A stretch of DNA of 60,470 nucleotides, taken from assembly GCA_001493195.1 (NCBI GenBank), contig FAXN01000046.1:1-60470 (forward strand), in the 5' to 3' direction. Both the position numbers and the translations under genes were made by a program. The first letter of the stretch is position 1; each line of letters begins with the position of its first letter. This document shows positions 14,008 to 51,543 of this stretch, piece by piece. This DNA comes from Sulfurovum sp. enrichment culture clone C5 (lineage in GTDB: Bacteria; Campylobacterota; Campylobacteria; Campylobacterales; Sulfurovaceae). The notes beneath the pieces were generated by a model, which did not search any database, was not told where the DNA came from, and saw only the letters and a list, made by a program, of their open reading frames with translations.

Positions 14008-14742
14008 TTATCCTAAAATTTTATTTATTGTGATTAAAAATATAAAAATATAAAACCAAACCATAATTGTCTTATAATGAGTTACTTTGATTTTTTTAAG
14101 CATCCATATACCCATCCAAATACCTAACAATGAACCAATTCCGAGCAATAATCCATGCTTATAATCCATAAGTCCAAAATAAGACAATGAAACAAAAGAT
14201 GAAAAAGATGAAAACATTACAAAAAACAATCCAACCGCTGATGATTTTTTAAGTGAAAATCCTAAAAAACTAACCAAAATAGGAGTCATAAGGATAGATC
14301 CTCCGACACCTAGCATCCCTGAAAAAATTCCAATACCAGAACCGATGAGAGTATATAGGTATGGATTATAAATCTCATCTTTTGAAGGCTGTGGATTTGA
14401 TAAAAAAAGCTTAACAAGGGTAAATACTACCACTCCCAAAAATAGGTACTCAAGCACTTTGTAATCAAGCACTTTGACTAAGTACGCTCCTAATATAGCC
14501 CCTGCTATTCCGCCTACTCCAAAATAGACTTTTCTAGACGGATTATATGTTTGATTTTTTCTGTGAAGATAAAATCCAAAAATAGAACTCATAAGCATTT
14601 GAAATACAGAAATGCCGATTGCCTGCTTTATATCAAATCCCATATAAAGCAATATTGGCACACTCGCCGTTCCGCCTCCTATGCCAAAAAAACCAGACAA
14701 TATTCCTACAAAAACACCAACTGCAACAAGCAATATTTCCAT
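14008..14742 (-). CDS. TauE/SafE-family sulfite/anion exporter
   Basis: 244 residues, almost entirely hydrophobic, with an internal two-fold repeat: GILSGFFGIGGGTASVPILL near the N-terminus is echoed by GIFSGMLGVGGSILMTPILV in the middle, the hallmark of TauE/SafE permeases. About eight helices are expected. The family exports sulfite, sulfoacetate and similar anions; the substrate cannot be assigned. Start ATG 14742 has GGAG seven bases upstream. Confidence 0.88.
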   Translation of the reverse strand: MEILLVAVGVFVGILSGFFGIGGGTASVPILLYMGFDIKQAIGISVFQMLMSSIFGFYLHRKNQTYNPSRKVYFGVGGIAGAILGAYLVKVLDYKVLEYLFLGVVVFTLVKLFLSNPQPSKDEIYNPYLYTLIGSGIGIFSGMLGVGGSILMTPILVSFLGFSLKKSSAVGLFFVMFSSFSSFVSLSYFGLMDYKHGLLLGIGSLLGIWMGIWMLKKIKVTHYKTIMVWFYIFIFLITINKILG

Positions 14743-14840
14743 CTAAAAACTCCAAAATTAAGACAATATTATACCATAAATAAGAGCATCTATAAACTTT
14801 TATCGTATAATTGCACATTCTAAACTAAAAAAGGGTTACA

Positions 14841-15707
14841 ATGAAAATTATTAATATATTTTTACTCTCTTTGGTATTATTTTTTACAGGATGTGGCGAA
14901 AACCAAAAAAATATAGTTGTTCCAAAGCCAATATATAAAAAACCAAAAATTGCAATTGCATTTGGCGGTGGTGCAGCAAAAGGTTTTGCTCACATTGGTG
15001 TCATAAAGGTACTTGAGCAAAATGGCATAAAAGTAAATATTATCACAGGAACAAGTGCTGGAGCTGTTATAGGGAGTCTTTATGCAAGTGGCATGAACAG
15101 TATAGAACTACAACAAAAAGCGATGGATTTAGAATCAGATGGCTTGATGGATTTTACATTATCTACCAATGGTTTTATAAAAGGTATTGCATTACAGAAT
15201 TTTATAAATAAATCAGTGCAAAATAAACCTATTCAAAATCTTAAAATTCCTCTAGGAATTGTAGCAACAAATAAAAACAGTGGTGCAACGGCTATATTTG
15301 TTTCAGGCAATACTGGGCAAGCTGTCAGAGCAAGTGCGAGTGTGCCAAATATTTTTCAACCTGTAAAAATAGGTAGCAATTTTTATGTTGATGGTGGACT
15401 TACACAACCAGTTCCCGTGAGCGCTGCAAAAAAAATGGGTGCAGATATTGTGATAGCTGTGGATATATCAGCAAAACCAAAAAGTGGAGTTAGCGGACTA
15501 CTTGAAACACTTGATCAAAGCATAAATATTATGAGCCAAGTTGCACTAAACAATGAACTCAAAAAAGCAAATGTTGTCATAAGACCAGACCTTGGCAGAC
15601 TTAGCTCTGTATCATTTGACTCAAAACATCAAGCTATCTTAGAAGGCGAAAAAGCAGCACTTGCCATGCTTCCTGCCATAAAAAAAGTTATAGCAAATTA
15701 TAGATAA
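14841..15707 (+). CDS. patatin-like phospholipase lipoprotein (RssA-like)
   Basis: 288 residues. It starts with a lipoprotein signal peptide (LVLFFTGC, Cys18). The patatin domain follows: oxyanion loop GGGAAKGFAHIG, nucleophile Ser72 in GTSAGA and catalytic Asp184 in VDGG, so the Ser-Asp dyad is complete. It would be an inner- or outer-leaflet-anchored lipid acyl hydrolase; the substrate is unknown. The SD-like AAGGG precedes the ATG. It converges on the DJ-1 gene, with a palindromic repeat between their ends. Confidence 0.9.
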   Translation: MKIINIFLLSLVLFFTGCGENQKNIVVPKPIYKKPKIAIAFGGGAAKGFAHIGVIKVLEQNGIKVNIITGTSAGAVIGSLYASGMNSIELQQKAMDLESDGLMDFTLSTNGFIKGIALQNFINKSVQNKPIQNLKIPLGIVATNKNSGATAIFVSGNTGQAVRASASVPNIFQPVKIGSNFYVDGGLTQPVPVSAAKKMGADIVIAVDISAKPKSGVSGLLETLDQSINIMSQVALNNELKKANVVIRPDLGRLSSVSFDSKHQAILEGEKAALAMLPAIKKVIANYR

Positions 15708-15715
15708 ACTAACCT

Positions 15716-15760
15716 TGTCATTCCCGCCGTCACCCCTGCGAAGGCAGGGGCAGGAATCTA
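15716..15760. repeat. dispersed palindromic repeat, expanded copy
   Basis: Related to 6345-6371, but here the stem is doubled: TTCCC..GGAA arms enclose an inner CCCCTGCGAAGGCAGGGG hairpin. It lies between two convergent genes (stops at 15707 and 15787) and could act as a bidirectional transcription stop. Confidence 0.7.
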
Positions 15761-15786
15761 TAATAACAATAGTAAATGCGAGAATG

Positions 15787-16350
15787 CTAGCAAAAATCGC
15801 TAAGAGTTTTATTTTTTACCATATCGTAAGTTTCTACGCCTACAAGTATTTTAACTATTTCAAGTCCAAAGCATATAGCAGTAGCAGGACCTCTAGAAGT
15901 CATAACTTTACCATCAATTACAACTTTTTGTTCTTTTGTATATCCATCAAACCGAATTTGTTCTTCAACTGACGGATAACATGTATAGTTATGATTTAAA
16001 ACCCCTGCTTTGTGTAGTGCAAGAGGAGCGGCACAAATAGCTCCTATCCACAAATCATTGGCTTTAAACTCTTTGAGAAGTGATTGCACTTTTTCGCTCT
16101 GTGCAAGTCTATTTGTACCGCCAGAACCACCAGGAAGCACTATCATATCATAATCATAGCTTGAGCAAATATTTATATCTATATTTGCTTGAATTGTTAT
16201 GCCATTGGCTCCGACTACCAAATCATTGGCAAAATCGCCACCTAGATATGCTATATCAACCTCTATGCCACCTCTTCTCATTATATTGATAAGGTTTACC
16301 GCTTCAATCTCTTCAAAACCTTCCGCAAGTGGAACTAGAACTTTTGCCAT
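15787..16350 (-). CDS. DJ-1/PfpI-family protein (YajL-like)
   Basis: 187 residues, the standard length. N-terminal AKVLVPLAEGFEEIEA contains the conserved Glu, and the nucleophile elbow IGAICAAPLAL holds the reactive Cys near residue 106. The GGSGG motif (LPGGSGGTNRL) is present. DJ-1/YajL proteins protect against oxidative and carbonyl stress as chaperones or proposed deglycases; the biochemical role is debated. It lies 15 bp after efp on the same strand, so the two are probably co-transcribed. Confidence 0.9.
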   Translation of the reverse strand: MAKVLVPLAEGFEEIEAVNLINIMRRGGIEVDIAYLGGDFANDLVVGANGITIQANIDINICSSYDYDMIVLPGGSGGTNRLAQSEKVQSLLKEFKANDLWIGAICAAPLALHKAGVLNHNYTCYPSVEEQIRFDGYTKEQKVVIDGKVMTSRGPATAICFGLEIVKILVGVETYDMVKNKTLSDFC

Positions 16351-16365
16351 ATATGCTCCTGCCTA

Positions 16366-16932
16366 TTATTTAGCTTTTTCTAGATAAACACCTTCAACTG
16401 TATCAACTTTTATCATTTCGCCTTCTAGTATGTGAAATGGTACTTGTACTACCGCACCACTCTCTAGTGTTGCAGGTTTTTTGCCGCCTTGGCTGTCACC
16501 TTTGAAGTTTGGTGGAGTTTCTACTACTTTCAAAACAACTGTTTGAGGTATCTCAACCGAGATTGCTTTTCCATTGTGAAAAAGTATATCAGCATTCATC
16601 CCATCAACCATAAAACTAAATGTATCTTCACCAACTTGAACTCTAGTAAGCCCAATCTGCTCATAAGTCTCATTATCCATAAATTGTAGATATTCACCAT
16701 CATCATAAAGATACTGCATAGTTTTTTGCTCTAATGCAGGTACTTCAAATTTATCGCCAGCATGGATAGTTTTTTCTATAACTTTTCCTGAACTCAAATG
16801 TTTGATTTTACATCTTACGAATGCTGCACCTTTACCTGGTTTTACATGTTGAAACTCTATAACTTTATAAGGATTTCCATCAAGCTCAAGCCTAACACCC
16901 TTTTTGATATCTCCCATGCCTATTGTAGCCAT
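16366..16932 (-). CDS. efp: translation elongation factor P
   Basis: 188 residues, three beta-barrel domains. Domain I carries the loop KPGKGAAF with Lys34 at the tip, the residue that is post-translationally lysylated in many bacteria. Domain III ends with the usual [18 protein letters not shown] rescues ribosomes stalled at polyproline. No modification enzyme (EpmA/EpmB type) is encoded in this window. ATG 16932 follows AAGGAGTAGTC. Confidence 0.97.
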
Positions 16933-40959: not shown

Positions 40960-41075
40960 TTCTACATATTCCTTTTATAATTTATAATTTTAAAAAAAGA
41001 ATTTTAGCCAAAAAGTGTTAATTGGTGGTTAATGAATAAAAAGAAAAAATTTATATATAAATTTATTGGATTTTG

Positions 41076-41116
41076 TTGGCTACAGTAAAATAGCAGACGC
41101 AACCTACTGTAACCAA
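41076..41116. terminator. strong stem-loop at the left edge of the accessory island
   Basis: Inverted repeat TTGGCTACAGTA / TACTGTAACCAA (11 of 12 bp) with a 17-base loop, 12 bp beyond the stop of the gene at 41129. Base composition is less AT-rich than its surroundings. It could terminate the island's minus-strand transcription or be an edge repeat. Confidence 0.5.
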
Positions 41117-41128
41117 TGATTGGCTCTT

Positions 41129-41644
41129 TTACAATGCTACTGTTATCAAATCAAAGTGGCTCACACATCCTGGCGGTGCAATGAATCCAACTTCAGCAAG
41201 AGGCAACCCATCTATGGAAGCAGACGAGACAATTGCCCCGATAAATGGCTTAACGGATCCGCCTTTCATTTTTGGACCACCAACCCACCAGTTGTTTCTG
41301 CTTCGTGCACTGTGTCCTTGTGCGAAGAGTACATTTTTGACAACCCAAATTTTTTTAGCAGATTTAAATGTAAGTGTGCCGTAAATGGCGAAATTGAGCT
41401 TATCGGGATAACTGTCAAATGTATCGCAAGCGGCGACAACACCTGTGTCTGCAATTTGCTTGAACCATTTTGCAACCTTTTCGGAACCATGTCTTCCTGC
41501 TTTTATATTAAGCTTATCATCTCCAGAAACTGTAACACCGCCATAGGGCTGACCATCTGATATCGAATAGTCTATCACATCAAATGATTTAATCTTAATT
41601 CCTGTTAAACTGAGTTGAAGGTAATTGTCGTGTTCTGTTGCCAT
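41129..41644 (-). CDS. hypothetical protein of atypical composition
   Basis: 171 residues. I do not recognise the family. No signal peptide or membrane helix; beta-rich, with many Gly and aromatic residues (RNNWWVGGPKMKGGSV, APPGCVSHFDL) and two Cys. Base composition is visibly less AT-rich than the flanking genes, suggesting horizontal arrival. A strong hairpin follows the stop. Its AAGGATAC-type SD precedes ATG 41644. Length resembles small tube-like or lectin-like beta proteins, but nothing specific supports those. Confidence 0.6.
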   Translation of the reverse strand: MATEHDNYLQLSLTGIKIKSFDVIDYSISDGQPYGGVTVSGDDKLNIKAGRHGSEKVAKWFKQIADTGVVAACDTFDSYPDKLNFAIYGTLTFKSAKKIWVVKNVLFAQGHSARSRNNWWVGGPKMKGGSVKPFIGAIVSSASIDGLPLAEVGFIAPPGCVSHFDLITVAL

Positions 41645-41820
41645 AATTGTATCCTTTTATACTGTTGTATATTGGGGACTGAATCTTATGTCATCTCCAA
41701 GTCAATAAGTCCAAAACTAGCTTGAAGATATTAAAATCATAAAAATTATAACATAAAGATTATAATATTGAAAACTTTTTTTTATTTAATGCTATATGTT
41801 AAGCTTCTATAGTTTAGTCA

Positions 41821-42990
41821 TTAAGGAACATGTCTTCTCAGCTCTATCTTTGGATTATGTTCTCTACAGCAACTATTTGTCGTAAAAGAGTAAACTTTTC
41901 CCAAATCATCAGTAATATTAACAACACATGAAAAAGCATAGCCCCAAATATTTTTATAAAGTTTTTCTAACTCTTTTGCTTCGCGATTAAAATTTAATTC
42001 AATTGAAACTTTTTTAATGTGTTCATTTCCTATACCACGAAGTTGCAATTGTCTCTCTAGAAAATCTTTGTAATATAAGGCAGTATATTCTGCATTTATT
42101 TGAGTAGGTTCTATTATATTTGAAAGCAAATCAAATTTGATATTTTTTATACCCAGTGAACATGCTTGTTTATACAGTTTTCCCAAAGCCCAATATCCAT
42201 CAATATCATTATTTCTAGAAATAAAATTAAAAGCTACTACTGCTGATAAATCTTTTAATAATTTTCGTTTTGGCATTTTGTCTTTATCTCTATTTATTTC
42301 CATTATCCTAGGTAAAAATGCGCAAATACGTGCTTCTTCGACTAAAATTTCTGCACATCTTATGGGATTTGCCTGCAAAATCAAATGTTCTCCAGAAACT
42401 TTAAAAACATTTAGACTGCTACAAACTTTTTGCCAATTATCCAAAGACTTTCTTGGAACAAGTTTATCATTTGAGGCTTGAATATAAGTTGTTCTAATAT
42501 CAAGTTTTTTACCAATTGATTTAAGCTGTCTAATTTCTTTTAATCTATAAAAGATTACATTAGGTGAGACTTTTTTAATTGATCTTTTGAACAAATCAAT
42601 GGTTTCATTCTTGACAGAAAATCCTAAAAAAAATATTTTAATCAACAAACTAGGTATTGGCAAATCAAATATTCTACCACTTGGGATAAATCTCAACAAT
42701 AAAGGTCTAGGATTTTCTAAAAATGTTGCTGCTAAAATTAGGGATTTTAAGTGTGTTGGTTTTGTCAATGCAATATTATAAGCTATGTTACCAGAAAAAG
42801 ATTCGGCAAGTAAAATAAAATCTTCTTGTGGTAGAAGTGATATTACATATTTTGTCAGTTCATCATATGATTGCTCTTTGTCTAAATCATAATTGATGAT
42901 TTTTACTTTTATCGAACTAGGCATAGCTTCTATTAATGGTTTAAATAATTCGCCTGTTCCATCAAGACCAGGCAATAAAACAATTTTCAT
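41821..42990 (-). CDS. alpha/beta hydrolase with an unknown C-terminal domain
   Basis: About 389 residues from ATG 42990 (MKIVLLPGLDGTGELF; the frame extends 10 codons upstream to 43020 without an SD). The N-terminal 235 residues are an alpha/beta hydrolase: oxyanion strand LLPGLDGTG, nucleophile elbow LLAESFSGN (Ala replaces the first Gly of GxSxG), and a His in VSGEHLILQANP. The C-terminal 150 residues (from about KRKLLKDLSAVVA) are mixed alpha/beta with several Cys at the end (NSCCREHNP) and match nothing I know. Minus strand, part of the island. Substrate unknown; the fusion is the odd point. Confidence 0.68.
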   Translation of the reverse strand: MKIVLLPGLDGTGELFKPLIEAMPSSIKVKIINYDLDKEQSYDELTKYVISLLPQEDFILLAESFSGNIAYNIALTKPTHLKSLILAATFLENPRPLLLRFIPSGRIFDLPIPSLLIKIFFLGFSVKNETIDLFKRSIKKVSPNVIFYRLKEIRQLKSIGKKLDIRTTYIQASNDKLVPRKSLDNWQKVCSSLNVFKVSGEHLILQANPIRCAEILVEEARICAFLPRIMEINRDKDKMPKRKLLKDLSAVVAFNFISRNNDIDGYWALGKLYKQACSLGIKNIKFDLLSNIIEPTQINAEYTALYYKDFLERQLQLRGIGNEHIKKVSIELNFNREAKELEKLYKNIWGYAFSCVVNITDDLGKVYSFTTNSCCREHNPKIELRRHVP

Positions 42991-43041
42991 TTTTACAATT
43001 AACCTTTCAGTCTTTCCCATTAAGACAACTAGAACTATTTA

Positions 43042-43347
43042 TCAAATATGTCTTATTTTCTCATACTCATCTATGGCATCTGTATCTATTTCTATTTTTA
43101 CAGGTTCAGCCCAATGGGCATTACTGCCTATTTTCTTAACCCCAGAAATCCAATATTCATCATCGGTATCTTCGCAGTAATAGTTCCCAGAAATTCCACC
43201 ACCTTTTATGCGTTTTAAAACTTTCTCTTTGTAGTAAATAGTTTTACCTGTTTTCGAAAAAGTAACCCAGCCAATTCTCGCTTCACCATTATTTTTATTT
43301 TCAACATACATAACTCTTTGATTAAGTCCTTTAGTTAATTGGCTCAA
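43042..43347 (-). CDS. conserved small protein of unknown function
   Basis: 101 residues, strongly patterned: RVMYVENK, ARIGWVTFSKTGKTIYYK, GGGISGNYYCEDTDDEYWISGVKK. I recognise this as a widespread small bacterial family often found alone in accessory DNA and of unknown function. No signal peptide. One of the row of short minus-strand genes, with the repeat element 43378-43453 immediately upstream. Confidence 0.7.
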   Translation of the reverse strand: MSQLTKGLNQRVMYVENKNNGEARIGWVTFSKTGKTIYYKEKVLKRIKGGGISGNYYCEDTDDEYWISGVKKIGSNAHWAEPVKIEIDTDAIDEYEKIRHI

Positions 43348-43377
43348 GTTATTCCTTTACTGTAAAACTATTTTTCT

Positions 43378-43453
43378 AAAAACATTATATAGAAATTTTT
43401 ATAAACTCTTATATAAATTCCCATCAAGATGATTAGTTGCCATTGTTACCTAG
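43378..43453 (-). repeat. island intergenic repeat, copy 1 (mini-ORF and -10 box)
   Basis: Read on the minus strand: a 14-codon mini-ORF (43443-43399, MATNHLDGNLYKSL) is followed by an AT-rich stretch ending TATATAATG, a match to a -10 box, about 30 bp before the next gene. Related copies: 43822-43860, 44404-44440, 45298-45390, 47327-47366 and 51355-51378. Confidence 0.7.
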
Positions 43454-43482
43454 CTCCTATATGTTTGATTTAACAACATAAC

Positions 43483-43508
43483 AAAAGTGGAAATTCAACG
43501 TCTGACCC
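43483..43508 (+). repeat. REP-like sequence matching the decayed RAYT ends
   Basis: AAAAGTGGAAATTCAACG followed by TCTGACCC. Nearly identical sequences form the inverted ends of the decayed transposase at 48562-48765, 5 kb away. Confidence 0.7.
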
Positions 43509-43515
43509 TTGGAAG

Positions 43516-43797
43516 TTAAGATAGATTGAGAACCTCTAATATTACCATAAGCAGTGATGTGTGAGAAGCTTTAGCTCTTGCTCTTTTTATACTTGAAGAT
43601 AGTGCTATGCTAAATATCATAAATAATTCAATTAAATTAACAAAAAAAATTGAGCTTCCAAGCATTGGTTTTAATAAACTACTAATAACAATAGCTATGG
43701 GAATTAAAGCTATCGGAAGAATTAAACCGATTAGTATATATTCTTTTTTTTCAAACTTTCCATAATAAGAAAATATTTTTACAAGTACATCTTTCAT
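43516..43797 (-). CDS. small DUF805-like membrane protein
   Basis: 93 residues with two or three hydrophobic helices (IGLILPIALIPIAIVISSLL, FFVNLIELFMIFSIAL). The start YYGKFEKKEYILIG and the late SSIKRARAKASH resemble the DUF805 pattern (GR.sRkeyW and IkRlHD). It may be a shortened or diverged member; function unknown. ATG 43797 lies 25 bp after repeat copy 2. Confidence 0.55.
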   Translation of the reverse strand: MKDVLVKIFSYYGKFEKKEYILIGLILPIALIPIAIVISSLLKPMLGSSIFFVNLIELFMIFSIALSSSIKRARAKASHTSLLMVILEVLNLS

Positions 43798-43821
43798 GTA
43801 TCTCCTTAGCTATTTTTCTAA

Positions 43822-43860
43822 AAACATTATATATAAATTTTTATAAACTCTTATATTTAA
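43822..43860 (-). repeat. island intergenic repeat, copy 2 (promoter-like half)
   Basis: Same AT-rich segment as copy 1 (TATAAGAGTTTATAAAAATT then TATATAATG on the minus strand) without the mini-ORF part, between the DUF2569 and DUF805-like genes. Confidence 0.65.
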
Positions 43861-44378
43861 TTTACAAATGTTTCCTTAGAGCGTTGTGACAAAAATAGAT
43901 ATGGTGTCCATATAAAAAGACTTATTAACGATTTACTAAGTTCTTTTATCGTTTCAACATCAAACATAAGTGCAGTTGGAACAATTAAAGTTAATATGTA
44001 TGAATCAATCAATAAAAAAATTACAGAAAATAATGATATCGAGGCATACCATTTTGGAAAATTTGATTTCTTACCAAAAAATAGTAACACCAAATAAATC
44101 GAAGCTAAGATTATTGCTAAATTAATGATAATTTCACCAAATAGAAATAATCCCCATGATGGTAAGTATGCATTACTGGTTTCGATAGTGTGTGCCTTCC
44201 AACTGTTATCATATAACATAGGGAAATAAACTATAAATGCAAAATACAGCATACGAAAAGGCCAAAAAACAATTCCTATTGCAAGAAGAATAAGCCATCC
44301 TCCGATATTTCTAGGTACTTTTTCTACTTTGTTTTGTTGTGGTTGTAAATTTTCTTCAAGAGAAATATTTGATTGCAT
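43857..44378 (-). CDS. DUF2569-family membrane protein
   Basis: 173 residues with four predicted helices. It shows the DUF2569 signature GGWLILLAIGIVFWPFRML after a charged N-terminal tail, and a C-terminal IWTPYLFLSQRSKETFVN. Members are small membrane proteins of unknown role, often scattered in accessory DNA. The stop overlaps repeat copy 2. Confidence 0.75.
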   Translation of the reverse strand: MQSNISLEENLQPQQNKVEKVPRNIGGWLILLAIGIVFWPFRMLYFAFIVYFPMLYDNSWKAHTIETSNAYLPSWGLFLFGEIIINLAIILASIYLVLLFFGKKSNFPKWYASISLFSVIFLLIDSYILTLIVPTALMFDVETIKELSKSLISLFIWTPYLFLSQRSKETFVN

Positions 44379-44403
44379 TTTATTCCCTTACTAAAACCAT
44401 ATC

Positions 44404-44440
44404 CAACAAACATTATATATAAATTTTTGTAATTTATGTT
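44404..44440 (-). repeat. island intergenic repeat, copy 3
   Basis: Minus strand: AAACAT, an AAATT/AATTT core, then TATATAATGTTTGTTGGAT. The outer AAACAT/ATGTTT arms make an imperfect palindrome. GTTGGAT at its end fits the integron core-site consensus GTTRRRY. Confidence 0.55.
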
Positions 44441-44464
44441 TTCATATCAGAACAAAGTAGAAAT

Positions 44465-44839
44465 TTATTCAAGCAAAAACATAAGACCGAGATCAGATAG
44501 TGCTAGGAGATATCCCCATATTAGCCATGTTATCGAATCATCAAAAGGAGAGCCTTCTGGAGGTTTAATAAATTTTTTTGTTAGTTGGGCTGGAAAAATA
44601 AGAAATATTACACCAAGTATCGCAAACAAATAGATACTTCCTTTTCCATCTGCTACTCTACGTGAAAAATATCCTTCTTTGGCACTTAAAACCTCTTGGA
44701 TACCATTAAACCAATCAACCATTCCTGTAAATACAAGTAGAAAAAATATCCCAAAAATTATTCCAATTAACCTATGAATATTCACTTTCGCCTTTTCGTA
44801 GTTCTCATCATTTCGTTGAGAACGCATACTTATTTTCAT
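44465..44839 (-). CDS. small membrane protein of unknown function
   Basis: 124 residues with a basic cytoplasmic start and three hydrophobic segments (LIGIIFGIFFLLVFTGMV, GSIYLFAILGVIFLIF, LIWGYLLALSDLGLMFLL). I do not recognise the family. Minus strand like its neighbours, flanked by repeat copy 3 downstream. The 66-bp gap to the next gene upstream holds no clear repeat. Confidence 0.55.
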   Translation of the reverse strand: MKISMRSQRNDENYEKAKVNIHRLIGIIFGIFFLLVFTGMVDWFNGIQEVLSAKEGYFSRRVADGKGSIYLFAILGVIFLIFPAQLTKKFIKPPEGSPFDDSITWLIWGYLLALSDLGLMFLLE

Positions 44840-44905
44840 TATTATATTGTAAAAATAGTAAATATGAAAATCATGGATTCTGTATAAAAAAATTTGAATG
44901 ATAGT

Positions 44906-45268
44906 TTAGTGTTGTATTATTGCTGACTTCTCATAATGACCCGTTTGGTCAAAGTAGATGTGTAAGTCATCATAGTCCATTCCTATACCACTACACATTC
45001 CCAGAATATATCTATATTCTTTTTTTGTGGCTCCACCATCTGGTGTTCCAAGAATATTTTCAATATCTTTATGTGTCATTTTAGGGTTAAGCATACTCTC
45101 TCTAATGTCTTCTGCCATACCACCTCGGTAACAGGTAACATCACTTTTGTCTGTTTGATGTGCAAACCAAACCTTTGAATCAAAACTAGAAGTCCCAAAT
45201 ACACTATAATTCATCCACCAAACAACTATCACGACAAAACAACACACAACAACTAATAATGGTTTCAT
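44906..45268 (-). CDS. exported or membrane-anchored protein with a BamE/SmpA-like fold
   Basis: 120 residues: N-terminal signal anchor (LLVVVCCFVVIVVWWM), then a small domain with MTHKDIENILGTPDGG, EYRYILG and DDLHIYFDQTGH. This order (helix, LG-P turn, beta strands ending in a DxxG turn) resembles the SmpA/OmlA/BamE fold. Function unknown. Repeat copy 4 (45298-45390) lies upstream. Confidence 0.5.
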   Translation of the reverse strand: MKPLLVVVCCFVVIVVWWMNYSVFGTSSFDSKVWFAHQTDKSDVTCYRGGMAEDIRESMLNPKMTHKDIENILGTPDGGATKKEYRYILGMCSGIGMDYDDLHIYFDQTGHYEKSAIIQH

Positions 45269-45297
45269 TTATACCTCGTGCTAGTAACTTATTTATT

Positions 45298-45390
45298 CAA
45301 CAAACATTATATATAAAACTTTATAAACTCTTATATACATTTCCATCAAGATGATGAGTTGTCATTGTTGCTTGACTCTTATATTCGCTG
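45298..45390 (-). repeat. island intergenic repeat, copy 4 (full, mini-ORF and -10 box)
   Basis: Minus strand: mini-ORF 45365-45321 (MTTHHLDGNVYKSL), then TATATAATGTTTGTTGAAT. Closely related to copy 1. CAACAAA just after the RT stop mirrors TTTGTTG at the other end, so the ~105-bp element is bounded by inverted ends. GTTGAAT fits GTTRRRY. Confidence 0.65.
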
Positions 45391-45403
45391 ATTTGTTGTA
45401 CAT

Positions 45404-47143
45404 TTAGTAAAGCGATTGACAGCACAATTGCTTAGGACTTCGAAAGTTATGGTTTATTTTCTCCAAGACACAGAATAAATCTTCAAATTTACTATAATCT
45501 ACGTCATCTTTATTAGAAATAAATTTTGCTAAATTAGTTTTTTCAATTATTTTTACACCATAGGCTATGTAATTAGATACGGCACTAATATTAGAATATT
45601 TATTTTTAATTTTCATATATTTATTTAGTTCGGTTTTCGTTTTCTCTGAGAATTCTTTCCTGTTGACATCAATTTTGAAACCATACTTTTTAATTATTTT
45701 TTTAATTAGTTCTTTATCAAGTAGTTTTTCTATATAGCCTTTATTTTTAAGATCAAGTAAAAAATGATTTTTATAGTCATGTTTTTCAAAATGTTTTTCT
45801 ATTGCAATTTCATCGGCATCTAAGACGAAACAAAATTTTAGGCTCTTATCAATATTTGGTAAAATACATTTACGTATATTTGCAATGTCTAGTTCATTTA
45901 ATTTACTCATTCTAACAATATGTTCATCATATAATATTCTATGCATTTTAATTACATCAGCATAACCACCAAAATAACTGTATCTAAGGTTGAGACTAGT
46001 AAACATTTTTTTATTTTTAAAAAACTTTAGCGCTTCCTTGATATATATAATATCCGTGACACCTTCTGTAAAAACCAGCAATGAATCATAAATTTGTGTT
46101 AACAATAATTTTGCTCTATCTTGTTGCATATTATAAAAATCAAAGTGTTCAAAATAATCTAGTTTTTCTTTTAAAGAAAAAGAACTATCTAATAAATAAT
46201 AGGTATGATAAAATCGAATATAATTTAAGTCATCCGTTCCTTTTACTTGCCCTATAAAATTTATTTTTCCTAATACTATATTTTTAAAGCTTTCTTCTTT
46301 GCTGTCAATATATTTTTTTGTTTGATTATTGAAACTCTTAAAGTGCTTCTTTGAAGCTTCTTCAATACCTTCTGTTTTCCATGAATATAACATGCTTCTT
46401 ACTTGACGGATATATTTTCTAGGTACATTAACTTTTTGGTTAACTTTTAATCCTGTAACAACTTGAGATTGGTTAGCTAACTGAATACGTGTTTTTAGGG
46501 TATTTATTTCAAAGCCATTGTCCACAATTATTTTTTCTATTTCATTTAAAATAAAATCCGTGTCCAAACTATTCTTATGTGTTGAGAATGTAATATCATC
46601 GGCATATCTTGAATAAGTCAGTGAATGCTTCTTTGAAAATTGAATTAAATTATGATCCATTTTTTTACAAATAATATTTGAAATAATTGGTGAAGTAGAA
46701 GCACCTTGTGGTAACTTATTATCATATGAAATAAGTTGAGCAAATTTTGTAGCAAGCGTTTCATCTAAACTGATTGGCTTAGCTAGGAAAATTCCTCTAA
46801 CTCTGCCAAAGTTTATAGTATCAAAAAAATCTTTTATATCTATATTTATAACAATTTGTTTTTTAACATGTTGTTTTGCATTTGAAACAATACTCTTTTT
46901 CTCTTCATTCTCCTTAGATTTAATAAATGCATGAACTGAGTTTGGTGCATTGTATATAGTTTGCAAAATACGATTTAATTTCTTTTGAAGTTTATCTGTA
47001 GTTTCTGGTGGTATAAGTAATCTACGTTTTCCACCGCTTTTTTTACTTATATTTTTTCGTTTGTACTTTTTTTTTCGATTGTCATATAACGCTAATTCAA
47101 ATAATTTTTCATAGTCATTATAAAATTGTTCTAGTATTTTCAT
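45404..47143 (-). CDS. retron reverse transcriptase fused to a TOPRIM domain (Ec67-like)
   Basis: 579 residues. The RT palm has motif A INIDIKDFFD (Asp102), motif B LPQGASTSPI and motif C YSRYADDITFS (YADD 180-183). Both retron-specific signatures are present: region X NAxxH (NAKQH, 88-92) and region Y VTG (229-231). After residue 350 a TOPRIM domain follows with Glu360 in VFTEGVTDIIYI and the DxD pair in FVLDADE (442, 444), as in the OLD-type nucleases. Retron-Ec67, a known antiphage retron, has the same RT-TOPRIM fusion and similar length. The RT makes msDNA from the msr-msd RNA; the TOPRIM part is the likely effector. The start follows AAGG inside the a2 repeat of the proposed ncRNA, 2 bp away. 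High confidence for RT class and fusion. Confidence 0.92.
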   Translation of the reverse strand: MKILEQFYNDYEKLFELALYDNRKKKYKRKNISKKSGGKRRLLIPPETTDKLQKKLNRILQTIYNAPNSVHAFIKSKENEEKKSIVSNAKQHVKKQIVINIDIKDFFDTINFGRVRGIFLAKPISLDETLATKFAQLISYDNKLPQGASTSPIISNIICKKMDHNLIQFSKKHSLTYSRYADDITFSTHKNSLDTDFILNEIEKIIVDNGFEINTLKTRIQLANQSQVVTGLKVNQKVNVPRKYIRQVRSMLYSWKTEGIEEASKKHFKSFNNQTKKYIDSKEESFKNIVLGKINFIGQVKGTDDLNYIRFYHTYYLLDSSFSLKEKLDYFEHFDFYNMQQDRAKLLLTQIYDSLLVFTEGVTDIIYIKEALKFFKNKKMFTSLNLRYSYFGGYADVIKMHRILYDEHIVRMSKLNELDIANIRKCILPNIDKSLKFCFVLDADEIAIEKHFEKHDYKNHFLLDLKNKGYIEKLLDKELIKKIIKKYGFKIDVNRKEFSEKTKTELNKYMKIKNKYSNISAVSNYIAYGVKIIEKTNLAKFISNKDDVDYSKFEDLFCVLEKINHNFRSPKQLCCQSLY

Positions 47144-47145
47144 TT

Positions 47146-47274
47146 AAAACCTTATAACTTTCACTTACCTTTGTCCTTTTTTGTAGGCTTCTAGCATTAT
47201 TTCAGGAAGAATACTTTGTATCCTTTTTCTACTCGTTGCAGGAACAACAACGAAAAGTTAAATAATAAGGTTTT
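47146..47274 (-). ncRNA. candidate retron msr-msd RNA
   Basis: About 129 nt directly upstream of the RT. Ends are inverted repeats as required for a1/a2: a1 AAAACCTTAT..TAACTTTTC (47274-47251) and a2 GAAAGTTATAAGGTTTT (47162-47146), complementary apart from a 4-base bulge. Inside are a hairpin CGTTG/CAACG (msr-like, about 47251-47233) and an 8-bp stem AAGGATAC/GTATTCTT with an AAA loop (about 47225-47207) that suits the msd. A sigma-70-like promoter ends just before a1. The branching G and exact msd limits are not assigned. Supported by position, structure and promoter, not by covariance. Confidence 0.55.
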
Positions 47275-47278
47275 GTGT

Positions 47279-47307
47279 ATTCTATCATAATATTAATTGT
47301 TGTACAA
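47279..47307 (-). promoter_or_regulatory. promoter for the retron
   Basis: Minus strand TTGTAC, 17 bp, TAGAAT: a -35 with 4 of 6 and a -10 with 5 of 6 consensus bases at ideal spacing. Transcription would start about 6-7 bases on, at the first base of the a1 repeat. Confidence 0.55.
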
Positions 47308-47326
47308 TGGTTGTCGTGACCAATAA

Positions 47327-47366
47327 TTTTCCCGTCAAGATGATTAGTTGTCATCGTTACCTGACC
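47327..47366 (-). repeat. island intergenic repeat, copy 5 (mini-ORF start only)
   Basis: Minus strand GGTAACGATGACAACTAATC and CATCTTGACGGG match copies 1 and 4 through the MTTNHLDG codons, then diverge. The frame stays open to 47229 (41 codons), running over the retron promoter and a1. Confidence 0.6.
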
Positions 47367-47367
47367 C

Positions 47368-48156
47368 TCATACTTCAATAGGCTTCTCTGAACCAGCCTC
47401 GATAACAAAGAAATGTTCAACGATATGACTATCAATTTTTAATGCTAAAGCTCTAAGTGTCTTATTATACTCCATTGCATCACCAATATCCACATATTGC
47501 TTTTTCCCGTGTGCAATATCATTCCTTGTTTCCCGTACGGAATGAAAAGTCTTTATTTCATACTCTGATAATGGAACACCAAAACACCACTGAGCAAAAT
47601 GTGGAATATCAACTGATTTCATATCTTTATAGCGAGCATGTAATTCTTTTGCACCAAATGCAGACATTAATTCTGACGGAAAACGAAATTCAGAGTTTGC
47701 GAGAAGTTTTGCATGTTTAATATATTTGTCTTTCTTCCCATTTTTTGGGTATTCCCGTAGTTTACGTACGGAAGTTTTAGCAGGTTCATTTTCAGCATAT
47801 AAAATATGACTCTTTTGTCTACTAAGTGCCATCTCAATATATGTATCAAAACCACCATGATAGTTAAAAAATTCAGTAATCATAGATTTAAAATAAGCCT
47901 CAAAATAACTGAAAGAACTAAGAAGCATTAATTTACCCAAGTTCTTTTTATATGCAGGAATATAATCTCTAAGCCGTTGAAAGTCCGGATCACCATGGTA
48001 GTAATCTGCATCAGGAAGTTTTGCCGCAGAACCTTTTTCTATCGCTTTCATATAACCTTTGAGAGAAGGGACTGCACTACAACAAAGAACAGAAAAATTT
48101 ATTACCTCTTGTACTTGTTCCTTGAGTGTTTTGAAACTATTGGTATTTGAAATCAT
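47368..48156 (-). CDS. HEPN-domain protein (RiboL-PSP-HEPN-like) upstream of the retron
   Basis: 262 residues, mostly helical, no signal peptide. The C-terminal part contains SVRETRNDIAHGKK, in which Arg211 and His216 form the Rx4H motif of HEPN ribonucleases. The N-terminal LLSSFSYFEAYFKSM helix is typical of the RiboL-PSP-HEPN group. Such proteins are toxins or abortive-infection RNases. It ends 61 bp before the retron promoter on the same strand. It could be an independent cassette or an accessory to the retron; the sequence does not decide. The SD AAAGGAATA lies a little far (about 9 bp) from ATG 48156. Confidence 0.72.
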   Translation of the reverse strand: MISNTNSFKTLKEQVQEVINFSVLCCSAVPSLKGYMKAIEKGSAAKLPDADYYHGDPDFQRLRDYIPAYKKNLGKLMLLSSFSYFEAYFKSMITEFFNYHGGFDTYIEMALSRQKSHILYAENEPAKTSVRKLREYPKNGKKDKYIKHAKLLANSEFRFPSELMSAFGAKELHARYKDMKSVDIPHFAQWCFGVPLSEYEIKTFHSVRETRNDIAHGKKQYVDIGDAMEYNKTLRALALKIDSHIVEHFFVIEAGSEKPIEV

Positions 48157-48214
48157 GCTTTGAGTATTCCTTTAAATTTTTGGCACAACATAGATATAGA
48201 AAACGGTCATGCTA

Positions 48215-48285
48215 TATATAACGTTTTACTTGAGAAATAGTTGCGCACGCAGGGTCAACTATTTCTTTCTAAGGTTTTGTTATGT
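48215..48285 (-). repeat. attC-like imperfect palindrome
   Basis: Minus strand: CATAAC, spacer, CTTAG, then a perfect 10-bp stem GAAATAGTTG/CAACTATTTC (apex 48234-48265), then CTCAAG, spacer, GTTATAT. Outer ATAAC/GTTAT arms pair like R''/R'. CTTAG versus CTTGAG pair with one extra base, like the extrahelical base in L''/L' of integron attC sites. About 70 bp, starting a few bases after the stop of a small ORF. No integrase gene is in the window. Confidence 0.45.
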
Positions 48286-48290
48286 TTTTA

Positions 48291-48542
48291 TCAAACTTCA
48301 TTCTGAATAAATTTTTGGACTTTCTCTTGTTTGACATTATCAGGAATATTACAAACAAGTGCATTTAAGACTTTTCGGACTGATTCTTTAAAATCAGGTA
48401 GTTTCTCTTTATTCTGAATATCTTCCATGAGCATTTGTCTGTACTCATCATATTCATTAGTGTTTAATTCTAAATCTCGAATATATTCAAATAAGTAGCT
48501 TACATCTAATACTGACATAATATCATGTTTTTTAATCCACAT
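48291..48542 (-). CDS. hypothetical small protein
   Basis: 83 residues, helical and acidic-basic mixed (FEYIRDLELNTNEYDEYRQM, QEKVQKFIQNEV). I do not recognise the family. ATG 48542 follows GGAAAAAA. The attC-like palindrome follows its stop, the layout of an integron gene cassette. Confidence 0.5.
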   Translation of the reverse strand: MWIKKHDIMSVLDVSYLFEYIRDLELNTNEYDEYRQMLMEDIQNKEKLPDFKESVRKVLNALVCNIPDNVKQEKVQKFIQNEV

Positions 48543-48561
48543 TTTTTTCCTTTCAAACTAC

Positions 48562-48765
48562 GGGTCAGGCGTTGAATTTCCACTTTTTACCACCTTCGAA
48601 ATAAGAGATTTGGATAGTCCTAAATGATTGCTTATTTAAGATTGTGTATATCCATCATCTAATGCATTTATTATAGCAAAGTTTAAACTAAATTCAAACT
48701 AAAAAGTATGTTGGGGGCGGTGGAACGGAACAATTATAAAAAAGTGGTTATTCAACACCTGACCC
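48562..48765 (-). pseudogene. decayed RAYT/Y1 transposase remnant with inverted REP ends
   Basis: Only the C-terminal helix-turn-helix tail of a larger RAYT-type transposase remains. Reading minus-strand from 48689: FAIINALDDGYTQS, an in-frame stop, then ISNHLGLSKSLISKVV. Flanking 26-bp arms (48562-48587 and 48740-48765) are inverted copies of the AAAAGTGG..TTCAACGCCTGACCC motif. One further copy lies at 43483-43508. Confidence 0.65.
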
Positions 48766-48777
48766 GTAATATTAATG

Positions 48778-51285
48778 TTATACTTTATCAAAAAAATCAT
48801 CTAAACTACTTAGTTCATCTTCTCCTATGGATGATTGTCTTTCTGCGCTATGTCTGACTTTTTTAAGATCATCTTTGTATTTTAAAATAATATCATTTAC
48901 AACTAAATACTTTTCATCTAAATTATATGTTTCTTTTTCTTCTTTTTCTTGCATGACCAAATATTTAAGAAAAGCGTTAGTTTTAGATATTCTGTGAATT
49001 AGTCTATAGCCTTTTTTTTGCTTTGAAAATAACTTAAATTCTTCTTCCGCAGATTTTGTAATACTGTTAGCTGTTTGCTCATCATAAATTTCACAATCTG
49101 AACATATTAAATCTAAATATGAAAAAAAGTGTATTAATAAACTAATAAAATATTCCCCATATGGTGTAATAGTTATACTCTCTATTTCTGGAATGTATTT
49201 ATCTACCTTAATATCTGCTTCTATTAATTTATATTCTATTAATAATGTAATATTTTCTATAAAATCTTCTTCCATATTGAATACTGCAAAGAATTCAGAT
49301 TTCATAACTGATAATGATGTATAGGTATTAATATAGTTATGTAAATATTTTAAAATTCTAATTGATGTAAAATGAGAACCATTTTCTAAATTTCTTAGTT
49401 GAAATATATTTGGAATTAAACTAGACTTTTCTTGGTAAAAATATTTTTGAGGAGTCATTAATGGTTTTAAAACCTGATGTATTTGTAAGTTATATATATT
49501 CCCATCCGTTGCAAGCATCTCATCAATATTCATATAGCCAGAAATGACTAAAGAACGAAATAAGTCCAATGCTTTTCTCATGTCTTTTTGGGCACATGAA
49601 ACTAAAAAACTATACAAATTTGACTTTTTTTGAAAATCATATCTAAAGACATTTAAATATTTTATAAAATTCTCATTTGTAACATTATCATTAAAACTTC
49701 TGTTTTCTGTTAACTTATTAAAAAAACTTTCATCTTCCATTAAATTCATTATGTAATCTAAACGTTGTATAAATACTTTATCTGCTTTAGGAGAAGTAAT
49801 ATGATATTGAACAGTTTCATACGCATCTAATACGCCAACCTTTTTAGAGCGAAAAAATCTTTCTTCTCGTATAGTAATAATTGATAAAGATTTTATTGCA
49901 CTAAAGATTTCAGATAGAATTTGAAAAGAATAGTCTTGTATCTCAGCTGAAAACTGATCCGTATTATCTAAAACTAAAATAATCTCTTTTCTTTCTATTT
50001 CTCTTAGATATTTTGCCAACCTTATAGCAAGCTCTCTATAATCTTTTAAGCTTTCTTCTATTTTAGCTTCGATTCTTGAAGAGAAAGTTTCTGATTCTTT
50101 CGAGTATAAAGAACTTATCTGTTCTTTATAGTTAATAAATTCATCTTTAAATAACACATTCTGTACATCTGAATAACTTCTTCTAAGATTTTTAATATCA
50201 ATTGCATCTAAAACATTATTCCAGATTTTTTCTTTGAACTCTTGCAGGGCATCTTCAGTAGGTGCATATTCTAGTAAATCTAGATGGATAACACTCAACT
50301 TTTCTTGAATTTTTTTAGGTATATCAGAATGTAATAATTTTTTTATAAAAGTAGATTTTCCACACCCTCTATCTCCATAAATTACAACAATATGTTTACT
50401 ATCACTATAGTCAATAAAATTAGTAACTTTTTTAGATAACTTTTTAGATAACTTTTCTCTTGTGTAATTAATAACACCATTTTTTTCTAAATAAGGTGTA
50501 GCATTATCCACCAATAATGAAGATAGCGTCTTCTTAGTATTTTCTACATGTTCTTCAACATAACAATTTTCCAAGAAATCCATATCATCAACTTTGAGGT
50601 CACTAAAATAATATCTTATTGGTTTTTCAAGATATTGTGCAAATTCATTAAAATCTACAGCTACATTGAAAGATGAAATATTTTCTTTTATTGAATAAGT
50701 CTGCTTTGATTGTATTCTTTTTTTTTGAAGTTTTTTATATAAACTTCTATCTTTTATTAAACTGTTATAGTTTAGTAAATTATAAGATTCTGTAAAACTT
50801 TCAGAGAAAAATTTTAAGTCGTATATCACGAATGCATTTAAATTCTCAAAATCTTGAGAAAATACAGTAAAAAATATCCATATATTCCCATTAGTAATTG
50901 CTCCATGTTCTACGCCCTTGATAAAACAATATTGTCTAACTTGTTCAATCGTGTCTTTAATATTTTTATCTGTTAATAAAGTTTTTATTTTTATGAGTGC
51001 GCTATTTTTATTGTTTATATTTATGTTATTTGGAAGAGTAAAAGCCAAACCTTCTTTTTTTGCTTCTATAATTAAAATTATTTTATTGTTTTGATCTAGC
51101 AATGAATAATCAGAATAACCAACTTTATTAACATGTTCTTCTGCAATGATTGCATTTTTAGGGATAGATAAAATTGAATATAAAATTGTATCAATGATTC
51201 TACTTCTAGTTGTTGCTTCATTAAGTTTTTCTCCGTTTGAATTCAATGATTCTATTAATTGAATTGCATTTTCATGTTGCTTCAT
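48778..51285 (-). CDS. PD-(D/E)XK nuclease fused to a P-loop ATPase, candidate defence protein
   Basis: 835 residues. The N-terminal domain resembles the type I restriction HsdR N-terminal nuclease: GYSDYSLLD (Asp59), ILIIEAKKEG (Glu74-x-Lys76) and the typical AITNGNIWIFFT. From about 295 a STAND/AAA-like ATPase follows with Walker A IYGDRGCGKSTF (304-312) and Walker B EIILVLDNTDQF (Asp438), then a long helical C-terminal region without repeats I can define. No methylase or specificity gene is nearby, so this is not a type I system. The nuclease-plus-STAND plan matches Avs-like antiphage NTPases, but the family is not certain. Minus strand, upstream end of the island; a repeat element precedes it. 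Confidence 0.75.
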   Translation of the reverse strand: MKQHENAIQLIESLNSNGEKLNEATTRSRIIDTILYSILSIPKNAIIAEEHVNKVGYSDYSLLDQNNKIILIIEAKKEGLAFTLPNNININNKNSALIKIKTLLTDKNIKDTIEQVRQYCFIKGVEHGAITNGNIWIFFTVFSQDFENLNAFVIYDLKFFSESFTESYNLLNYNSLIKDRSLYKKLQKKRIQSKQTYSIKENISSFNVAVDFNEFAQYLEKPIRYYFSDLKVDDMDFLENCYVEEHVENTKKTLSSLLVDNATPYLEKNGVINYTREKLSKKLSKKVTNFIDYSDSKHIVVIYGDRGCGKSTFIKKLLHSDIPKKIQEKLSVIHLDLLEYAPTEDALQEFKEKIWNNVLDAIDIKNLRRSYSDVQNVLFKDEFINYKEQISSLYSKESETFSSRIEAKIEESLKDYRELAIRLAKYLREIERKEIILVLDNTDQFSAEIQDYSFQILSEIFSAIKSLSIITIREERFFRSKKVGVLDAYETVQYHITSPKADKVFIQRLDYIMNLMEDESFFNKLTENRSFNDNVTNENFIKYLNVFRYDFQKKSNLYSFLVSCAQKDMRKALDLFRSLVISGYMNIDEMLATDGNIYNLQIHQVLKPLMTPQKYFYQEKSSLIPNIFQLRNLENGSHFTSIRILKYLHNYINTYTSLSVMKSEFFAVFNMEEDFIENITLLIEYKLIEADIKVDKYIPEIESITITPYGEYFISLLIHFFSYLDLICSDCEIYDEQTANSITKSAEEEFKLFSKQKKGYRLIHRISKTNAFLKYLVMQEKEEKETYNLDEKYLVVNDIILKYKDDLKKVRHSAERQSSIGEDELSSLDDFFDKV

Positions 51286-51354
51286 GCGTCCCTTCCTTAT
51301 AATCTTGTCATTTTATATAGCTTTAGCATAAACTTTGAAACTTAACTATTTGTT

Positions 51355-51378
51355 AAACAAACATTATATACATTAATT
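51355..51378 (-). repeat. island intergenic repeat, copy 6 (truncated)
   Basis: Minus strand TGTATATAATGTTTGTTTAA, the -10-like end of the island repeat, about 70 bp upstream of the nuclease-ATPase gene. It marks the right edge of the repeat family. Confidence 0.5.
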
Positions 51379-51438
51379 ACTTAAATAATATAAATTAAAT
51401 ACAAAAGAAGAAATATTGTGACAGAGGATATTGATTTG

Positions 51439-51465
51439 TGGATTCCTGCTTTCGCAGGAATGACG
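51439..51465. repeat. dispersed palindromic repeat, perfect copy
   Basis: TGGATTCCTGCTTTCGCAGGAATGACG: arms ATTCCTGC / GCAGGAAT. Opposite orientation to 6345-6371. Lies in the 258-bp gap between the island and purH. Confidence 0.8.
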
Positions 51466-51489
51466 AAGATGTCATTACTAGGAGTTTAC

Positions 51490-51541
51490 CGACGAAGTAA
51501 TCCATGGATTGCCACGAACACTGCGTGTTCTCGCAATGACG
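51490..51541. repeat. second palindromic repeat family (GTCATTGCGAG..GGCAATCC)
   Basis: Arms GGATTGCCACGAACAC / GTGTTCTCGCAATGAC are complementary with mismatches. This repeat type is widespread in bacterial intergenic DNA. It ends 3 bp before the purH stop and may serve as its transcription stop. Confidence 0.65.
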
Positions 51542-51543
51542 AA

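Follow-up and report, generated by a model that had tools for sequence, protein, structure and literature searches.

Several described systems share part of the design of the protein considered here. In AVAST (Avs) and other STAND defense NTPases, an effector lies N-terminal to a P-loop switch, and our protein has this effector-first order in common with them. RdrA of RADAR and BrxC of BREX bring an AAA+ fold of the ORC/STAND branch into defense, as here, but both are parts of multi-gene systems whereas our protein is encoded by a solo gene; we know of no nuclease fusion for either. HsdR of type I restriction systems (3h1t, EcoR124I) resembles it in its PD-(D/E)XK fold with D...ExK, its TNG element, and a QxxxY-like element, yet the SF2 translocase of HsdR is replaced here by an ORC/Cdc6-like AAA+ module, and HsdM and HsdS are missing. 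The nuclease fold also matches those of the type IIG enzymes BpuSI and DrdV, but no methylase domain is matched in our protein by Pfam. Finally, ORC/CDC6-clade AAA+ ATPases with a winged helix and a restriction endonuclease (REase) domain have been proposed as counter-invader conflict systems (PMC10853773). In the excerpt of that paper considered here, the REases are C-terminal or inserted, or the genes form HerA/FtsK operons, whereas our protein has an N-terminal HsdR-type REase and is a solo gene.

The gene lies on contig FAXN01000046.1 of Sulfurovum sp. enrichment culture clone C5, of which the 60,470 nucleotides analyzed are called the window below. It is an intact 835-aa ORF on the minus strand (51285-48778), with an ATG start and no internal stop, and it is the sole copy in the host genome (1.6 Mb, 105 contigs, 92.9% complete). 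The initial annotation had placed the ORF exactly, to which we add the strand, and had read it as the fusion of a P-loop ATPase to a nuclease of HsdR type. That reading held up: the nuclease and Walker residues are invariant and the nuclease domain matches 3h1t. A chance ORF is ruled out by 75 conserved relatives. The full-length model has a mean pLDDT of 86.9 and a pTM of 0.74, and the resulting architecture, an HsdR-type nuclease followed by an ORC/Cdc6-like AAA+ module and a winged helix, is as good as certain.

The N-terminal domain (residues 21-190; 50716-51225), delimited by profile and domain-model matches, has the alpha-beta fold with D...ExK of HsdR-type PD-(D/E)XK nucleases. None of the 75 different full-length relatives lacks any of its catalytic residues, Asp59 and Glu74-x-Lys76 (51058-51111), and the same holds for Glu23, Tyr119, and Gly133. 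The last of these is the glycine of the TNG element to which the initial annotation had pointed; the asparagine of that element varies, 60 of the 75 having Asn at this position and the other 15 Asp. On its own, the window protein matches HSDR_N_2 weakly (16.6 bits, Pfam cut-off 25); its relative L007 passes the cut-off for that family, and L042 and L050 pass that for HSDR_N (PF04313). A profile of 48 relatives retrieves the HsdR fragment 3h1t (E 3.6e-6, profile positions 18-140). The same fragment is the best solved match for a separate model of the nuclease domain (pLDDT 89.4, pTM 0.83), with a Z score of 10.7 over 120 residues at 3.5 Å, followed by BpuSI (Z 10.4) and DrdV (Z 9.3), on a scale where unrelated mitoribosome rows reach Z 7.7. 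Foldseek alone gave nothing below an E value of 0.001 for this domain model, its best match being BpuSI at 1.5e-3. A predicted fold lacking the nuclease core, which had been named as an outcome that would overturn the reading, is not what the domain model gives.

A helical linker (residues 191-295; 50401-50715; model confidence low at 270-294) joins the nuclease to the AAA+ core (residues 296-515; 49741-50400), which is recognized by the model and fold searches. Gly304, Gly307, Gly309, and Lys310 of Walker A (residues 304-311; 50353-50376) are invariant in 75/75 relatives, as are Asp440, Asn441, and Asp443 of Walker B (residues 435-444; 49954-49983), where D-N-x-D replaces the usual D-E. Because the usual catalytic glutamate is thus missing from Walker B, with Asn441 in all 75 sequences, fast ATP hydrolysis is doubtful, and to judge from this motif ATP may be more a switch than a fuel.

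When the full-length model was compared with solved structures by Foldseek and VIA-align, residues ~215-720 fell with ORC/Cdc6 proteins, which were at the top of both lists, with Z scores of 13.2 for 7jgr_G (258 residues, 4.2 Å) and 12.9 for the Cdc6/Orc1 structure 2qby_A (333 residues, 7.8 Å). RdrA (Z 11.9), BrxC (Z 11.8), and CED-4 (Z 11.3) ranked lower, and the STAND member Apaf-1 and TnsC were further fold neighbors. A search of BFVD gave chiefly clamp-loader and AAA proteins, along with one 396-aa phage protein labeled "Type I restriction enzyme R protein, N-terminal domain." The core is followed by a lid (residues 516-635; 49381-49740; delimited by the model and conservation) and a winged-helix region (residues 636-720; 49126-49380; seen in the model's secondary structure and covered by the 2qby_A alignment, which reaches residue 720), the arrangement of the ORC/Cdc6 clade. 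Within the lid, Arg570, a sensor-2-type arginine, is invariant (75/75) and sits two residues past Asp/Asn 568; this ORC-type feature sets the protein apart from Avs and other STAND proteins. Arg508 is invariant as well, and 70/75 sequences have Arg at position 473, where the strand following Walker B ends. The model also has several helices between strand 2 and Walker B, which may or may not correspond to the helical insert that ORC/Cdc6 proteins carry past strand 2. The STAND families in Pfam gave weak matches only, all below cut-off. Taken together, the modeled fold and the lid arginine suggest an ORC/Cdc6-like AAA+ ATPase that is sister to STAND and closer to ORC/Cdc6 than to classical STAND proteins; the "STAND-type" label first given to the ATPase does not sit well with an ORC/Cdc6-led fold list.

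The "long sensor-like C-terminus" of the initial annotation likewise dissolved, for the most part, into the AAA+ lid and winged helix. Past the winged helix only ~115 residues of helices and tail remain (residues 721-835; 48781-49125; full-length model), and Pfam finds no TPR, WD, LRR, or other repeat family in the window protein, which thus differs from Avs and other STAND proteins with their large repeat sensors. In its own clade (27 rows), mean column entropy is 1.32 to 1.52 in the lid, winged helix, and C-terminal helices, against 1.29 in the nuclease; since these values resemble each other, nothing points to a rapidly evolving sensor. The loosest parts are the N-terminal helix (2.43) and the last 45 residues (1.88), which are the only hypervariable stretch of the supposed sensor; next comes the insert of helices that precedes Walker B (1.61). 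Elsewhere in the family the C terminus carries recognizable domains: an S1 domain is detectable in 15 members of an ~890-aa subfamily (above the Pfam cut-off in L042 and L050), and L017 has two cold-shock domains and matches a PADLOC model for such a domain. Such domains in some clades fit contact with nucleic acid. Across the 75 different full-length relatives that make up the conservation set (3 duplicates and 16 sequences that were short or broken were dropped), only 17 of the 835 columns never vary, and because 13 of these 17 belong to the nuclease site or to one of the Walker motifs, both activities are under selection.

The window protein belongs to a family that has been recognized without being assigned a function. 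It matches PHROG 14719 over its full length (residues 10-802 align with profile positions 14-807 of 833, E 1.7e-70), as do all 10 of the members scanned. Its relatives are currently annotated as hypothetical, P-loop, or HsdR-N proteins, no name for the family was found in a literature search, and no family in the 2023 PADLOC models fits, 11 members giving weak partial matches only. The first description as an "undescribed type" therefore holds as far as PADLOC and naming go but is too strong otherwise, because the pairing of ORC/CDC6 ATPases with REases is already discussed in the excerpted part of PMC10853773. In the portion of the DefensePredictor paper considered here (PMC13092281), 42 E. 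coli units were validated, 13 of them from a group of 31 with PD-(D/E)XK domains, and a member of our family may be among them. With the ORC/CDC6-REase theme acknowledged and many unnamed PD-(D/E)XK proteins validated in E. coli, at least in these excerpts, the protein is best described as one of a known kind from an unnamed family.

Members of this family are widespread but patchy. Relatives were found in 28 plasmid records (17 with coverage of at least 80%), at 40 viral-contig loci, and, for the window protein's own clade, at 32 genome loci in Alpha-, Beta-, and Gammaproteobacteria, desulfobacterial bins, a planctomycete, and a Bacteroidales bin. Among 5426 complete E. coli genomes, 109 carry the S1 type on the chromosome and 7 carry most of the L029 type. 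Within the host's own family, only 1 of 175 genomes, that of the window, has a full-length match, the other 4 matches being to the P-loop only; a profile search of the whole phylum gave matches in 142 of 397 genomes, those listed, the window's own aside, being single-domain matches to the nuclease region or P-loops of other proteins. In the tree the window protein joins 28 own-clade rows with support 100, but its branch is long, so that its exact position is unsure. Since 50,697 phage records contain no match for the window protein or L042, carriage by prophages rests on the viral contigs and bacterial genomes.

The gene itself has the appearance of an arrival. Its GC content is 0.25 to 0.26, against 0.35 to 0.39 for the adjoining purH-purL, and it lies in a variable segment between a rhodanese gene and purH (40960-51543) that measures 10,584 bp here, whereas its counterparts in three relatives span ~435, 1,009, and 1,095 bp (six related regions were compared; in the other three, one of them a 3.7-kb contig, no rhodanese gene was found). 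The same segment holds, on the minus strand, a retron reverse transcriptase-Toprim gene (45404-47143; PADLOC RT-Toprim_I-C, E 1.5e-219) and a HEPN gene (47368-48156; HEPN_RiboL-PSP, E 3.7e-11, above cut-off), so the proposal from the sequence that the gene shares its island with retron and HEPN genes is borne out. Because it is short in relatives, contains an AT-rich gene, and holds the retron and HEPN genes, the segment looks like a recently acquired defense-type island. An 83-aa ORF from the ORF list, with no function assigned (48291-48542, minus strand), lies just upstream of the HEPN_RiboL-PSP gene, with which it possibly forms a pair. For the retron ncRNA, Rfam has no match in the window, and the stretch just upstream folds like its shuffles (z -0.69).

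Relatives, too, lie on mobile DNA. The P2 gpA-gpQ site, a hotspot carrying defense systems according to the excerpt considered of Rousset et al. (PMC9122126), holds 9 of the 40 viral-contig loci, several of whose contigs end too early to tell, and E. coli locus L079. Lambda-like and Rac-like prophages carry other members in their early regions, and those on plasmids and islands are accompanied by integrases and transposases. An all-against-all comparison of 459 neighbor proteins revealed no constant partner gene: the biggest recurrent groups are P2 gpQ, terminase-type, and gpA proteins, followed by transposases, resolvases, and other prophage genes. Around the 32 own-clade loci, 119 of 123 neighbor proteins were scanned with Pfam and PADLOC (the four of L110, a near copy of L007, were omitted), and the 25 largest families were listed for each. 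Phage integrases and resolvases head the Pfam families so listed, with 5 each; there are a few ATPases of defense type, and the defense models matched include AriA-like (3), mad3-like (3), and Old or GajA (2), so that known defense genes are not strongly enriched near own-clade members. At L079, a KAP-type NTPase gene (14741-16585, plus strand) directly follows the S1-type member of a P2-like E. coli prophage, a pairing not general among members. In one clade, related ORFs of ~160 aa, with no Pfam match, lie 32 to 52 bases upstream of the member (L022, 7429-7914; L024, 7402-7899; L025, 7388-7867) and are a possible partner there. A caspase-family protein gene (L009, 1451-3418, plus strand) lies near a Sinorhizobium plasmid member.

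On this evidence the protein is likely to serve in anti-phage defense, a role that the gpA-gpQ hotspot, the plasmid and island settings, and the retron and HEPN company all favor; the fold matches to RdrA and BrxC count in the same direction. The account that we favor on balance is of a stand-alone, horizontally moving anti-invader protein whose nuclease is licensed by AAA+ assembly. The effector would be the N-terminal HsdR-type nuclease, and its substrate is probably DNA. The ORC/Cdc6-like AAA+ module and winged helix would bind invader nucleic acid or a replication intermediate, and the module would assemble there in an ATP-dependent manner, perhaps as a ring, bringing nuclease domains together and so switching them on; that nucleic acid is the trigger for this assembly we put forward tentatively, at slightly less than an even chance. 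Because no methylation partner is used, self would have to be told from non-self by DNA state or expression timing rather than by a host mark.

The main rival is an Avs- or NLR-like sensor, in which the AAA+/STAND module would oligomerize on sensing a phage protein and unleash the nuclease on cellular DNA in an abortive infection. The order of effector and P-loop NTPase, the presence of CED-4 and Apaf-1 among the fold matches, and the near-constant Arg473 would all suit such a protein, but we think it unlikely, given the lack of a repeat-family match, the short stretch after the winged helix, the lid-to-C-helix entropies of the own clade, where no hypervariable sensor shows, and the absence of any Avs match in PADLOC. 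ORC/Cdc6 and TnsC as fold neighbors raise a different prospect, that of a helper for the replication, maintenance, or transposition of a mobile element, in which the nuclease would have a processing role. Integrases and transposases near members and the prophage early regions agree with it; a helper of this kind is nevertheless improbable for genes that are scattered over unrelated elements (P2-like, lambda-like, and Rac-like prophages, plasmids, and chromosomal islands) with no fixed partner, and that recur full-length in no other genome searched from the host's family.

The HsdR-type nuclease also raises the question of whether the protein might be a solitary HsdR-like subunit served by type I HsdM and HsdS encoded elsewhere. 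The window's own genome, 92.9% complete as noted, has no match anywhere to HsdM (PF02384) or HsdS (PF01420). HsdS was sought in 28 of the 32 own-clade genomes (L104, L105, L112, and L113 were omitted); it is absent from 18 and is never on the member's contig in the other 10, some of these contigs being short. The lack of methylase and specificity partners seen by the initial annotation thus extends to the whole host genome and, for HsdS, to the contigs of these relatives. Relatives that lie consistently beside hsdM/hsdS, the other finding that was to have overturned its reading, are not what this survey gives. There are two exceptions in kind: type II restriction-modification genes lie ~0.5 kb from L013, and HsdR and N6-methylase genes lie past an IS66 at L017, the latter speaking for a solitary HsdR. 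With an AAA+ module in place of the SF2 helicase motor, however, this explanation is very hard to credit, and a type I restriction subunit as such is rejected, as no helicase-motor family exceeds the Pfam cut-off, the fold is AAA+, and HsdM and HsdS are lacking.

If the favored account of a nuclease licensed by AAA+ assembly is carried to the whole family, the members could form a widespread one-protein class, "ORC-gated restriction," in which the AAA+ and winged-helix modules would read the replication state of an invader and license an HsdR-type nuclease without a methylation mark or a partner, and swappable S1 and cold-shock domains would tune the nucleic acid that is read; we offer this generalization as speculation, with the balance of probability against it. 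The family is common, spans several phyla, and sits in hotspots that feed the discovery of defense systems, and its E. coli members permit direct testing. Should these proteins restrict phage, they would show how an HsdR-type nuclease stays safe without modification, and they would link ORC/Cdc6-type ATPases to one-gene immunity.
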